64,000 bases of DNA from a virus. The notes under the pieces are model-generated. The model saw only the letters and a list, made by a program, of their open reading frames with translations. It was not told the origin of the DNA and made no database searches. The position numbers and the translations under genes were made by a program. Location of the stretch: IMG/VR virus record IMGVR_UViG_3300036760_000522, positions 237,551 to 301,550 of that record; one strand, 5' to 3'. Below, piece after piece: positions 20,578 to 58,570 of the stretch; within the stretch, counting starts at the first letter, position 1, and each line of letters begins with the position of its first letter.

Positions 20578-22179
20578 TCACGCCGACGGTGTCGCAGCTG
20601 GCTTAGCGACACGCTTTCGAACAAGGACTTCCGACATCAAACAAGTCGTCGCCACTGAAACTGCGTTCGTCAACGCAGCCCTAACGACTTGTGCAGGGTC
20701 CACAATACCTGCTTCCCAAAAGTCCTTCAACACACCGTCCGTAACGTCCAAGCCGAGAGGATCTGCACTGTCTCGGACTAGAGCAACCGCAACAGAGCCT
20801 GAACCACCAGCGTTCTCGTTGAGTTTGCGTAGAGGAGCTTCACATGCACGTAGGACCAAACGATAACCCAACAGCTGTTCCTCGGTCAGATTCTTATCCG
20901 TCGCATCACACGTCGATGCGGCACGGAGTAATGCGACTCCCCCGCCCAAAACCACACCACCATCAATCGCTGCTCGAACCGCCGAAAGCGCGTCCTCCAT
21001 TCGAGCCTTTCGCTCCTTCATCTCGTACTCGGTAAAGGCCCCCACTTTGATGATGCAAACACCTCCTTGCAAACGACCTACACGTTCGCGCAAACGATCA
21101 GCGTCATACTCCGAGCCGCAACGATCCGCCTCTGAAAGCAACGTCGCGATTCGACTGTCGATCACTTCGGGCTTGCCCTCACCACACAAGATAGTGGTCG
21201 CCTTCGAAGTCACAGTCACACGACTAGCAGATCCGACGTATTGTAAAGGGTCCTTCTCGAAACAGGAGAATGTCATTCCTTGTTGTTTAGAAATGAAAGT
21301 TGCGCCAGTCATGATGGCAAGGTCCTCGAGAGCATCGGATTGAAATATGCCGTGGCTCGGAGCCTTGACCAAGACTGCCTTAAGCTGTCCTGCCTTGAAG
21401 TTCTGCAAGAACAACGGCAGCGCCTCACCTGTGAAATCAGGTGCAAAAACCACCAGTGCACGGTTCTCAGTGATGACTGCATTCAAAAGCGGCAGCAACG
21501 GAAGACAAGCTGAGACACCCCAGTCCGTCACCAAGATGTACGGGTTGTCGTAAACAATATCCGCACCGTCTACAGCGAACTCCGGGTGTGCCCAACCACG
21601 ATCGATTTGAGTACCGTCAACAGTGACAAGTTCAGTCTTAGTCCCTCGCCCCTCTTCGACGTTGACGATTCCGTTCTGTCCAACTTTCACAACGGCTTCG
21701 GCCACCATGTGACCGAGATCGCGATCGCCGTTTGCACACACCGTTGCAATTTTTTCAATGTCTTCTTGATCCGCAACAGATCGTGTTCGCTCTGCAAGTG
21801 ACCAAAGAATCGCTTCCAACGCACAATCCATTCCACGCTTCAGGGACACAGGCGCGGCCCCAGCAACCACCAACGACGCACCGCGTTTACACAAATACTG
21901 GGCCAAGACAATGGAAGTAGTTGTCCCATCCCCGACATCGTCACTGGTTTGTGACGCGACATCCACGAGAAGCCGAGCGCCCATCTCCTCCCACGGATCA
22001 GGTAACGAGATCTCTTTAGCAACCGACACTCCGTCCTTCGTTACCAAAGGTAGGCCGAACGTCTTCTGGAGACAGACCGTTCTACCCCTAGGACCAAGCG
22101 TTACCGCGACAGCTCTCGCCAGCTGGTCAATCCCACTCAACAACTTCGAGCGCGCGTCTGAACCAAAACGAATCGACAT
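20578..22179 (-). CDS. groEL: GroEL-like chaperonin
   Basis: The 533-residue protein starts MSIRFGSDAR at ATG 22179. A GTG at 22194 would add 5 residues. Chaperonin signatures are clear: VAVTLGPRGRTV, TKDGVSVAKEI, DDVGDGTTTS (ATP-binding DGTTT) and GGGVALLRA near the C-terminus. The bacterial GGM tail is missing. It probably folds capsid or other phage proteins. No GroES gene is adjacent, so it either uses host GroES or works without a lid, as reported for some jumbo-phage chaperonins. Confidence 0.95.
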   Translation of the reverse strand: MSIRFGSDARSKLLSGIDQLARAVAVTLGPRGRTVCLQKTFGLPLVTKDGVSVAKEISLPDPWEEMGARLLVDVASQTSDDVGDGTTTSIVLAQYLCKRGASLVVAGAAPVSLKRGMDCALEAILWSLAERTRSVADQEDIEKIATVCANGDRDLGHMVAEAVVKVGQNGIVNVEEGRGTKTELVTVDGTQIDRGWAHPEFAVDGADIVYDNPYILVTDWGVSACLPLLPLLNAVITENRALVVFAPDFTGEALPLFLQNFKAGQLKAVLVKAPSHGIFQSDALEDLAIMTGATFISKQQGMTFSCFEKDPLQYVGSASRVTVTSKATTILCGEGKPEVIDSRIATLLSEADRCGSEYDADRLRERVGRLQGGVCIIKVGAFTEYEMKERKARMEDALSAVRAAIDGGVVLGGGVALLRAASTCDATDKNLTEEQLLGYRLVLRACEAPLRKLNENAGGSGSVAVALVRDSADPLGLDVTDGVLKDFWEAGIVDPAQVVRAALTNAVSVATTCLMSEVLVRKRVAKPAATPSA

Positions 22180-38075: not shown

Positions 38076-38109
38076 GTCTTCAATGCCCAATCGGTCCGAC
38101 CCCTACCGG
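38076..38109 (-). promoter_or_regulatory. Recurrent leader element, copy e
   Basis: The minus strand has GGTAGGGGTCGG, then ACCGATTGGGCATTGAAGAC, ending 6 nt before ATG 38069. It closely matches copy i at 58036. Confidence 0.65.
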
Positions 38110-45924: not shown

Positions 45925-45985
45925 GGCTTGGAGGGCCATCAGGCAGCAGATTTGACAATCCGTGAATCGGGATAACACTTAGTTG

Positions 45986-47839
45986 ATGTTATTTAAGTAC
46001 CCGTCTCTGGTTTCAGTTGTCCTGCTCCTAGCCTGTAGCGATCACCAAGATTCGGTTGGACCTGTTGGCCGTGTCACACAGGCTGTAAGTTACGTTTCTG
46101 ATTCACTAAATTGCGGTGCCAGCGGCTACCAATGTAAAGGCGGTCGCACCTGTCAGACTGGCCATTGTACCCCGGTTTGGATCCCCATGTCGACCGTCGG
46201 CGCACCCGCGCCTCGGTTTGCCGCAGCTGCAACAGCCTACGAAGGGAAGTACCTGGTTGCAGGTGGCTGCACGAGTTACGACCTAAATGCGCCGGCAGAA
46301 ATTACGGCGTCAATTTACGATCCCGCGACTGATACGTGGTCTGAATTTCCGTCGTTCGACATTGAAGACAGGCGTAATCTGTCCGTGTTGTTTACGGTTC
46401 CGGACGGACTGTATTCTCTCGGCGGTGAAACACAATGCCGGCATGCCGGCATCTCCTCCTATCATACACTGGTGAAGTACGACCCGATTGGTTTGAAATG
46501 GGACCGACTCCCGTACGAAGAAGACACCATCAACGCAGGCTACAACAAGTCGATTACTGTCATTCCAGGGACCAATGAGATTTTTATCTATGGTGGTGGA
46601 GGAGGCAATGGTCCGGCCTGGTGGTATGCAGATCGCGGAAGTTTCCCTCTTCTCGAAGACACATGGCTGAGCTGGACACATCCCGGTTGCCCACTTTCCG
46701 GATGCATACGCGGAGGGGCTTTTACGACCTTCTACGACGCAGGCTTCATCCGTGTCATGGGAGGAGATCCTACCTACGGAACAGCGCCCGCAGGTTTGTC
46801 ATTCGAACTTGCAACCAGCACTTGGTCAAACTGGACGGTACCAGCCGGGACCCCGGACTTCCAAAACGACTTTTCAAACTACTCCAACACAGCTCCGACG
46901 GGTGTCGACACCGGCACGCGACTCATGTACGTCTCGGAGACGGGGAACGTCGCCATTTACGATCGCGCCTTAGGCACGTGGTCGACGGATGTTACCGCGC
47001 CGCCTAGCGGCTTCTGTGCGGGCGGATCAGCCGCTTACGTGGACGGTGAACTCGTCGTGTACTCCGGAAGCTGTGACGGCGTTCTAGCGTCCGTTGGTGC
47101 GCGCTATCAGGCGCCAGCTCCGGGATTGGCGTTCACACCAACGGTGTCAGTTACAAGCACAAGTACGACATTCACTGTCGGAGAGGTGACCCGACTCGTC
47201 ACCTTCAATGATCCATTTGGGATCGATGAGACTGAAGTCACGGCTGCGCAATACCAGGAATGTGTCACGGCTTCTTCTTGCACGGCTGCTGCGACCGGTG
47301 GCGCATGCACAAGCGGAGTCTCGGGTCTTGAACAACACCCAATCAACTGTGTCACTTACGCACAGTCCGGGGCTTACTGCTCTTGGGCCGGTAAGCGACT
47401 GCCGACCCAGCAAGAGTGGGAATACGCCGCTAGGCACAACGACCCGACCACCCACAAGTACCCTTGGGGCAACAGCACGGCGGATTACAACACGAAGTGC
47501 AACTTCTCCGTCACAACCGACGGCTACGTCGCCACAGCCCCAGTAGGCAGCTTCCCTGCTGGAAACAGCGCCCTTGGCCTCCAAGACATGGCGGGCAACG
47601 TCTGGGAGTGGACCTCGAGCCCAGCCTGCTTCAACGAAACCGGGGATTGTACGAATTGCCCGGCCGGTGGTTGTGCAAGTGCTTGCGACGTTTGCGGCAG
47701 CCCAGATCGTGTCTTCAAAGGCGGAGGTTTCACACACGCGCTTGCCTACACGCGTTCGGCATTTCGCTCTTACAACGACCCAAGCTACTCGACAGACATC
47801 CTCGGTTTTCGTTGCGCCAAGAACACCGTTGTTCCCTAG
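45986..47839 (+). CDS. Lipoprotein with Kelch-like repeats and FGE/sulfatase-modifying domain
   Basis: The 617-residue protein has a lipoprotein signal (VVLLLAC, C17 lipid-anchored). A short Cys-rich EGF-like stretch (SLNCGASGYQCKGGRTCQTG) follows, then Kelch-like beta-propeller segments (YLVAGGCTSYD, GLYSLGGET, EIFIYGGGGG) to about 385. The C-terminal FGE-sulfatase domain runs through GKRLPTQQEWEYAARH, MAGNVWEWT, FKGGGFTHA and GFRCAK. Such surface proteins are widespread in Myxococcota and most such domains are not true formylglycine enzymes. It would face the periplasm or outside. Very unlike its small phage neighbours, and inverted repeats bracket it, so it is probably acquired cargo. Confidence 0.85.
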   Translation: MLFKYPSLVSVVLLLACSDHQDSVGPVGRVTQAVSYVSDSLNCGASGYQCKGGRTCQTGHCTPVWIPMSTVGAPAPRFAAAATAYEGKYLVAGGCTSYDLNAPAEITASIYDPATDTWSEFPSFDIEDRRNLSVLFTVPDGLYSLGGETQCRHAGISSYHTLVKYDPIGLKWDRLPYEEDTINAGYNKSITVIPGTNEIFIYGGGGGNGPAWWYADRGSFPLLEDTWLSWTHPGCPLSGCIRGGAFTTFYDAGFIRVMGGDPTYGTAPAGLSFELATSTWSNWTVPAGTPDFQNDFSNYSNTAPTGVDTGTRLMYVSETGNVAIYDRALGTWSTDVTAPPSGFCAGGSAAYVDGELVVYSGSCDGVLASVGARYQAPAPGLAFTPTVSVTSTSTTFTVGEVTRLVTFNDPFGIDETEVTAAQYQECVTASSCTAAATGGACTSGVSGLEQHPINCVTYAQSGAYCSWAGKRLPTQQEWEYAARHNDPTTHKYPWGNSTADYNTKCNFSVTTDGYVATAPVGSFPAGNSALGLQDMAGNVWEWTSSPACFNETGDCTNCPAGGCASACDVCGSPDRVFKGGGFTHALAYTRSAFRSYNDPSYSTDILGFRCAKNTVVP

Positions 47840-48435: not shown

Positions 48436-48996
48436 TTACGGCTTCGAAGTGGACTTCCCTTTCAAGTTCTGTACGCGTGTGATTTCCTCAGCCGTATGTG
48501 GCGTCCCGCCTGCGTTGATCCCCAGGTACAGATCGAGTACTTCGTCGCGAGTCTCCAAGGAACAAACGCGCCATTTGAAAGTGTGAGACAACGTGCGAAG
48601 CTTACCTGTGAATTCCTTGTAACGATGACCAAAGACCCTGAGGTCGTTTCGCAAGAATTTACGTACTGCTTCGAGTCGTTGCTTGCCGTCAACAATGGTA
48701 TACGGTCCTCGGTAATCCCGGCCCCAACCAGGGCAGTTGAAGGTGAGATTCCTTCCGACTTCGCCGCCTCGTAAGGCGTACTCGACGTAGGCGACTTGTT
48801 GCGCTTCCGTCCAAACATGCGCACGCTGGAAGTCCGGCTCAAGATCAAGAGGGGCCACCCTCTCTTCAGTCTGGTGCTGGATGTGTTCCTCGAGGTAAGT
48901 CCAAAAGACGTCGATTTCGTAATGCGCGTGCGGAAATTGGGGGATGTCGTTGAAGTCCATTCCCTTTTCACTTGCGGCTTGCGGCTTGTTGGTCAT
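48436..48996 (-). CDS. DUF262-type protein (ParB/GmrSD N-terminal-like)
   Basis: The 186-residue protein has the DUF262 signature. LEPDFQRAHVWTEAQQVAYV, ALRGGEVGRNLTFNCPGW, then YTIVDGKQRLEAVRKFLRND, where the IVDGxQRL motif is the NTP-binding/ParB-like hallmark. In GmrSD-type enzymes this domain hydrolyses NTP to license DNA cleavage. The HNH DUF1524 half is absent here, so it may be a decoy, antitoxin-like or regulatory protein. Copy g of the leader element lies about 80 nt upstream. Confidence 0.8.
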   Translation of the reverse strand: MTNKPQAASEKGMDFNDIPQFPHAHYEIDVFWTYLEEHIQHQTEERVAPLDLEPDFQRAHVWTEAQQVAYVEYALRGGEVGRNLTFNCPGWGRDYRGPYTIVDGKQRLEAVRKFLRNDLRVFGHRYKEFTGKLRTLSHTFKWRVCSLETRDEVLDLYLGINAGGTPHTAEEITRVQNLKGKSTSKP

Positions 48997-57041: not shown

Positions 57042-57329
57042 ATGGAAACCAAAAAGAAGGCGCCTCGAAAATGGGCCGAACCGCGCTTCAGAGGCTTCGG
57101 AGAGACCGAATTAAGTGAAACCGATCTCGAGATGCATTACCCTGAGTACCAACTACAAATGTTGGACTTGAGGAAGGCACTCTTCATCGCAGCAAGCCAG
57201 GCTATGCTTACGCGTACCGCCGGGGTAGGTCCTTCTTCTGTGTCTCTAAAAGCAGCAAAAGCTGCACATGAATACGCCCAGACGGCGACTAAATTTTGGA
57301 GTGAGCAGGAGTACGACGACCGTGACTGA
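57042..57329 (+). CDS. Hypothetical protein
   Basis: The 95-residue protein from ATG 57042 (METKKKAPRKWAEPRFRGFG) has a basic start and helical rest (AAKAAHEYAQTATKFW). It overlaps the next gene by GTGA-type coupling. Confidence 0.55.
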   Translation: METKKKAPRKWAEPRFRGFGETELSETDLEMHYPEYQLQMLDLRKALFIAASQAMLTRTAGVGPSSVSLKAAKAAHEYAQTATKFWSEQEYDDRD

Positions 57330-57636
57330 CAGAATTCGAACCCTGACCGTCGTACTCGATGCCGACTATCGAGATGACGATCTCGAATCACTCCTCACAG
57401 CAATCAAGATGGTTCGAGGTGTCGATGATGTTCAATTTGGTGAAGTCGTCAATTACAAGGACTGGATAGCCCGTCGTGCAGTGAAGACTGAACTCCAGCA
57501 CGAACTGCTCAAAGCAATCAACGGCGTGTTCGAAGAAAAGGCTTGGATAGCCCGTCGTGCAGTGAAGACTGAACTCCAGCACGAACTGCTCAAAGCAATC
57601 AACGGCGTGTTCGAAGAAAAGGCTCGAAGCTTGTGA
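57322..57636 (+). CDS. Hypothetical protein with exact internal duplication
   Basis: The 104-residue protein from GTG 57322 begins MTDRIRTLTVVLDADYRDDD, followed by a segment (VVNYKD) and two identical 27-residue repeats (WIARRAVKTELQHELLKAIN...). Without the duplication it would be 77 residues. The N-terminal part resembles a small ferredoxin-like fold. No function known. Confidence 0.6.
   Translation: MTDRIRTLTVVLDADYRDDDLESLLTAIKMVRGVDDVQFGEVVNYKDWIARRAVKTELQHELLKAINGVFEEKAWIARRAVKTELQHELLKAINGVFEEKARSL
57463..57624. repeat. Perfect 81-bp tandem duplication
   Basis: 57463-57543 and 57544-57624 are identical base for base, in frame, within a gene. A recent event. Confidence 0.95.
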
Positions 57637-58034
57637 GCAAGCCAACAACCGTGCTCCTCGACTACGAGCTGCCTTGCTTGGCTGAAATCCTCGCTTGGGA
57701 ACATGCTCCCAAATTCATACTCACGATCTGGGTAAAACCTAACGTCCGAGAGTTGGTCTACCGTGGGGCTCCGCACACCTGCGTGACGATGACGCCAGAA
57801 GAAGTCGTGAACTCTCCGACGTGGACCGTGTTCATCTCGCCCGATTTCGACTTGGTCAGGTCTTGGCACAAATCGGTTGCGTGGCCAAGATATCGGCCTC
57901 CATCAAATGGCATTTGGCTCCGCCCCGAAGGCCCTGAGATTGACACTTGGCCCAATTGCATCAATGCGCCAAGCTTTGATGTTCGATTGAAGTCTCGACT
58001 GCTGCACGAGCTCGAGGTACGAGATAAGCTGTGA
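57633..58034 (+). CDS. Hypothetical protein
   Basis: 133 residues from GTG 57633 (MSKPTTVLLDYELPCLAEIL), alpha/beta with WTVFISPDFDLVRSWHKSVA. No family recognised. Start overlaps the upstream stop. Confidence 0.55.
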   Translation: MSKPTTVLLDYELPCLAEILAWEHAPKFILTIWVKPNVRELVYRGAPHTCVTMTPEEVVNSPTWTVFISPDFDLVRSWHKSVAWPRYRPPSNGIWLRPEGPEIDTWPNCINAPSFDVRLKSRLLHELEVRDKL

Positions 58035-58035
58035 C

Positions 58036-58069
58036 GTGGTAGTGATTAGACCGATTGGGAATTGAAGAC
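58036..58069 (+). promoter_or_regulatory. Recurrent leader element, copy i
   Basis: GTGGTAGTGATTAG, then ACCGATTGGGAATTGAAGAC ends 7 nt before the Tad2-like ATG at 58076. One of the best matches; nearly superimposes on copy e. Confidence 0.65.
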
Positions 58070-58075
58070 GAAAAC

Positions 58076-58570
58076 ATGTCCATCGAAAGAGGTCTATTTC
58101 ATTTCGCGAAGCATCAGGACCTGACGTTTGGCGAAGCTCTCGAAGCCTTGAAGGCAGGCCAACTAGTCAGGCGTCCATCTTTCAATAGTGGTTCGCACCT
58201 CTACCTCGAAGACAGCTTGTCGGTGAAAATCCGGGCAGGTGCCTACAAGGGCACAACTCGCTCCTACGAGCTTTTCATCGCCCTTTGCCAAGCTCGTTCT
58301 GGAAAACACTACAACTCGTTCACAAACGAGTGGGTCCCCTACCGGGATAAACATCAACCGGGTTGGACTCCGTCTCAAGCCGACATGCTAGCTACCGATT
58401 GGCTCGTGGTCCTACCGACGCCCGTTCCTGAGAGCAAACCAGAGAAGCCACGCAAGAAGGGCCGTCAAATATTTCCGAAGGCCCATTACGCTCATCTGAA
58501 GAAGCTGTCACGTACGCGTGCGAAGGCATCCAAGAAGCGGATGCCGACAAGTTCCCGTCGACCAGGGTGA
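58076..58570 (+). CDS. Tad2-like (DUF2829) anti-Thoeris protein with basic tail
   Basis: The 164-residue protein has the DUF2829 layout. LTFGEALEALKAGQLVRRPS starts the domain, HLYLEDSLSVKI follows, and WTPSQADMLATDWLVV closes it, as in Tad2. Tad2 proteins sequester the cyclic ADP-ribose-type signals of Thoeris defence. A basic tail of about 50 residues (KPRKKGRQIFPKAHY...) is added here, unusual for the family and perhaps for RNA or DNA binding. It follows leader element i, so it may open a transcription unit. DUF2829 members also include untested proteins. Confidence 0.75.
   Translation: MSIERGLFHFAKHQDLTFGEALEALKAGQLVRRPSFNSGSHLYLEDSLSVKIRAGAYKGTTRSYELFIALCQARSGKHYNSFTNEWVPYRDKHQPGWTPSQADMLATDWLVVLPTPVPESKPEKPRKKGRQIFPKAHYAHLKKLSRTRAKASKKRMPTSSRRPG

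Follow-up and report, generated by a model that had tools for sequence, protein, structure and literature searches.

Tad2-family proteins soak up bacterial alarm molecules. Those that antagonize Thoeris are homotetramers with two signal pockets that bind gcADPR or His-ADPR and rescue phages from this defence. An open reading frame (ORF) in a large phage genome resembles these proteins and ends in a strongly basic tail, which raises the question of whether it encodes a Thoeris antagonist, a sponge for some other immune signal, or a Tad2 fold put to a different use. We examined it in the window, a 64,000-nucleotide stretch corresponding to bases 237551-301550 of a virus record of 301,550 bases (301.5-kb).

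The gene and its setting

The 60 proteins scanned in the window included matches to the RecD-like helicase, ribonucleotide reductase, RecA/UvsX, NAD-dependent ligase, ThyX and GroEL families, a set expected of a large tailed phage. The terminase shares 41% identity with that of an uncultured 485-kb phage. A close relative is represented by a 159-kb contig (L207; IMGVR_UViG_3300037424_001177), whose TerL is 97% identical. No Tad2 match was found in that record, which, judging from its extent and the position of TerL, probably stops short of the orthologous place, and the missing match therefore says nothing about conservation.

Several other features of the genome were observed. A 186-aa protein with a GmrSD_N (DUF262-type) domain is encoded at 48436-48996 (-), and the ORF at 57268-57636 contains an in-frame 81-bp tandem duplication (57457-57618, 98% identical) that repeats a 27-residue unit. 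Two predicted lipoproteins (45983-47839, +, and L108:2068-4650), of which one combines Kelch repeats with an FGE-sulfatase domain and the other is GGSGG-rich, are reminiscent of myxobacterial secreted proteins, which may be a weak hint at the host. Several unrelated proteins (54613 and 54812, +; 55561 and 40618, -; L100:455; L103:15555; L106:11464, -) open with much the same peptide, approximately [AS]xxVVxRY at the N-terminus, which is possibly a targeting or maturation signal.

The Tad2-like locus comprises the following features.

58031..58067, +: repeated leader element, core 58053-58067 (GATTGGGAATTGAAG), 8 nt before the ATG
58076..58570, +: Tad2-like ORF, 164 aa, from the ATG at 58076 to a TGA ending at 58570
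58121..58411, +: Tad2-like (DUF2829) core, residues 16-112; PF11195 match 6.1e-14; clade profile matched end to end, 71.5 bits
58172..58198, +: RPSFNSGSH, residues 33-41, in place of the family R-x-G-W-N-G-K-G-M loop and one residue shorter
58301..58348, +: about 16 extra residues (GKHYNSFTNEWVPYRD) ahead of the terminal HQPGW motif; their precise position is ambiguous
58361..58402, +: conserved terminal motif GWTPSQADMLATDW, residues 96-109
58412..58567, +: basic C-terminal tail, residues 113-164, net charge +15, tail pI 11.9

A first-pass annotation had placed the ORF at 58076-58570, after a leader element, with a clear DUF2829 core; all three descriptions hold. The leader is a real repeat: 13 copies of its core occur within two mismatches in the whole genome, against none for the reversed control, and 15 sites exceed the shuffled background of a weight matrix, with the site at 58053 scoring highest. 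Sites of the leader pattern are distributed as follows.

Leader TTGGGAATTGAAG sites, +: 58053, 31749, 31115, 40669, 45139
Leader TTGGGAATTGAAG sites, -: 49090, 38092, 37495, 27739, 20203; five more sites lie outside the window

The copy at 38092 (-) has the same 8-nt spacing to an ATG as that at 58053, while several others lack a clear ORF start directly after them, and no leader precedes the second Tad2-like gene of this phage (see below). The pattern had no exact match in other IMG/VR contigs. Its role is possibly that of a promoter or a translational leader.

A Tad2 domain with a changed loop

The PF11195 match spans residues 17-112 of the protein and positions 2-73 of the 73-position profile, and its score of 52.8 bits is twice the curated cut-off of 25 bits. 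The best-matching relatives of solved structure in the PDB are HgmTad2 (1.9e-8), AcrIIA7 (3.1e-8), SPO1 Tad2 (3.6e-5 and 4.1e-5) and ModTad2 (1.1e-4). PHROGs matches were chiefly to families of unknown function, neither Tad2-like copy of the phage matched NCBIfam, and querying IMG/VR with just the protein found no close relative. Among the three profiles compared, that of the protein's own clade scored 71.5 bits, compared with 34.1 for Hgm/Spt and 27.7 for SPO1/Mod.

The domain departs from its relatives in two segments. GWNGK is a near-invariant signature of the family, although outside Pfam's formal definition of PF11195, and is kept by the four solved relatives and by almost every other member; the present ORF reads S-F-N-S and is one residue short there. 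In an alignment of 157 rows (155 relatives plus the two copies of this phage), the relatives' conservation was 0.99 at G35, 1.00 at W36 and 0.94 at K38, where the ORF has S, F and S. The relatives were retrieved by patterns built on the terminal motif and FG.AL and not on GWNGK, so the conservation of GWNGK is not simply a product of how the relatives were chosen, as that of the terminal motif partly is. The gcADPR pocket is described in a review as lying between loops beta1-beta2, beta3-beta4 and beta4-alpha3 and helix alpha3 (PMC12043709). From sequence order, we assigned GWNGK to the beta1-beta2 loop, which would make it a pocket-lining segment. The second departure, the insertion of about 16 residues, corresponds to a gap in 66 of 66 aligned relatives. 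Its placement depends on the profile: the Hgm/Spt profile puts the extra residues between beta2 and beta5, and with the clade profile they fall on both sides of the last strand.

The rest of the domain is well kept. The terminal GWxxSQxDxLAxDW motif is present, and the strictly conserved R33, N37, W97, S100, D103, D108 and W109 are all retained. In its WxPSQxDxLAxDW form the motif is nearer to the VPS of SPO1 Tad2 and the TPS of ModTad2 than to LAS, the form in most relatives, and since these two proteins carry such variants, the T-P change falls within tested variation.

The basic tail and the second copy

The 52-residue tail contains 17 K/R (10 Lys, nine of them encoded by AAG, and 7 Arg) and two D/E. 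Over the last 50 residues it is the most basic C-terminus of the 251 proteins of at least 90 aa called in the record, an approximate number since genes were called with a simple codon-score script; the next reaches +9, and the mean is -0.3 (sd 4.1). Among stop-free non-coding stretches of 52 codons from this genome, 0.5% are at net +15 or above, most of them Arg-rich, and 22 of 86,131 overlapping stretches combine such a charge with 10 Lys or more. At 0.02 per codon, the codon score of the tail frame is uninformative.

No comparable tail was found among about 170 family relatives. A first set, 80 IMG/VR loci and a few phage records, held no basic tail. Apparent long tails in its L024, L058 and L082 contain the terminal GW..DW motif and mark only the point at which the profile match stopped. 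In a second set of relatives (91 matching ORFs in 95 loci), four C-terminal extensions of at least 50 residues had net charges of -6, -4, +4 and -6. The tail had no match in the PDB and only weak hits among the phage's other proteins, and neither the IMG/VR protein search nor the 159-kb relative yielded an orthologue for testing selection on it. The earlier description of an unusual basic tail of about 50 residues is thus borne out. From its charge alone, the part suggested for it in binding nucleic acid or in localisation is plausible. A search of the record for a PhuZ-type tubulin found none, though one of divergent sequence could have escaped it, which leaves localisation to a phage nucleus without support.

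The phage carries a second Tad2-like gene, of 114 aa, whose product shares the loop deletion and ends in a basic tail that is shorter and contains PKKKRK.

L002:1432-1776 (G000:C1 about 21425-21769): second Tad2-like gene, PF11195 match 1.7e-9

Its tail has net +5 over 26 residues and resembles the first in composition only; local similarity was not significant (p 0.26-0.46). In a poorly resolved tree, in which long-branch attraction is possible, the two copies form a sister pair (support 100/87), each on a long branch (1.5 and 5.4 changes per column), and nest in an uncharacterised HLYLE clade that also holds Serratia phage Tlacuache and relatives from IMG/VR. Both have the loop deletion and the TPS variant, in agreement with a common origin.

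A probable sponge for an immune signal and its known relatives

We consider it somewhat probable that the protein is a divergent Tad2-family sponge for a nucleotide-type immune signal, with a ligand perhaps unlike the known ones and a tail that binds polyanions. Family membership follows from homology and the sponge role is inferred. The protein would presumably oligomerise, bind its ligand stoichiometrically and so keep the effector of a signalling defence (Thoeris, CBASS or related) switched off. The ligand may differ from those of the known family members because two pocket-side segments, the loop and the insertion, are changed. The Lys/Arg-rich tail, probably disordered, may bind DNA, RNA or phosphate-rich ligands, thereby keeping the sponge near nucleic acid or increasing its affinity for charged signals. 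This reading draws on the PF11195 score, the matches to solved Tad2 proteins, the full-length clade match and the retained conserved residues, and is further backed by the second copy, with its loop deletion and basic tail, and by a tail charge beyond background. Against it stand the GWNGK loop, constant in the four solved relatives and altered here, so that binding could be lost, a tail without homologue, the purely compositional likeness of the two tails, and searches that gave no orthologue for testing selection on the tail.

The first-pass annotation had called the protein a Thoeris antagonist. The family assignment stands, and Thoeris antagonism is one possibility among several, since cyclic dinucleotides, as well as gcADPR and His-ADPR, are ligands of family members (PMC12043709; PMC13299392), the clade is uncharacterised and the loop is altered. 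We regard a standard antagonist that binds gcADPR like SPO1 Tad2, with a dispensable tail, as unlikely: homology to SPO1 Tad2 and the form of the terminal motif speak for it, but the clade profile scores, the changed loop and the range of ligands in the family speak against it. Loss of nucleotide-signal binding by the Tad2 fold and its repurposing, for instance as a nucleic-acid-binding or regulatory protein worked by the tail, would fit the loop residues lost in both copies, the long branches and the strong tail charge; the well-kept remainder of the domain, terminal motif included, and the retention of two copies in one genome make it a little less likely again.

We think it improbable that the tail is incidental, downstream DNA read through after loss of an ancestral stop codon and with no function of its own. 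The closest named relative (99 aa) does stop right after the domain, and the uninformative codon score and the tail's want of a homologue also speak for read-through. However, equally basic non-coding frames are rare and mostly Arg-rich, unlike this Lys-containing tail, and the second copy's tail is likewise basic. The boldest extension of the sponge reading, and the one to which we give least credence, is that two paralogous sponges with a remodelled pocket take up an undescribed signal and are tethered by their tails to phage nucleic acid; the signal would then be caught at the site of infection sensing. Differences in the pocket have gone together with different immune signals among Tad2 relatives, and the loss of a near-invariant loop and gain of a polybasic tail make the present protein a candidate for binding a new ligand or for being a localised, non-diffuse sponge. 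A merely drifted sponge would be of minor interest.

The favoured reading, a divergent sponge, can be set beside the known systems. The closest named relative, an ORF of Serratia phage Tlacuache (L003:3959-4258; 46% identity), shares the HLYLE clade, but has an intact loop and no insertion. SPO1 Tad2 (Bacillus phage SPO1 gp34.65; PDB 8sme, 8smf), which binds 1''-3' gcADPR and not 3'3'-cGAMP (PMC11722364), has the same domain and the W-x-P-S-Q-x-D-x-L-A-x-D-W motif. ModTad2/MoTad2 (9eib, 8v3e) shares the domain with a WTPS variant of the terminal motif, and reportedly counters type II Thoeris via His-ADPR binding (PMC13299392). Unlike the present protein, SPO1 Tad2 (about 90 aa) and ModTad2/MoTad2 (88-89 aa) are tail-less with GWNGK intact, as are HgmTad2 (8kbi), its best single-sequence PDB match, and SptTad2 (8wjd). 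The last two reach a similar domain length through additional residues that follow the strands and precede the GW motif. A long insertion between beta2 and beta5 is reported for cyclic-dinucleotide binding in HgmTad2-type proteins (PMC12043709), and its correspondence to the extra residues here is ambiguous and profile-dependent. AcrIIA7 (9kzr), a 158-aa member of the same domain family that is annotated as a type II CRISPR inhibitor, also carries an extension, at its N-terminus rather than, as here, at the C-terminus.
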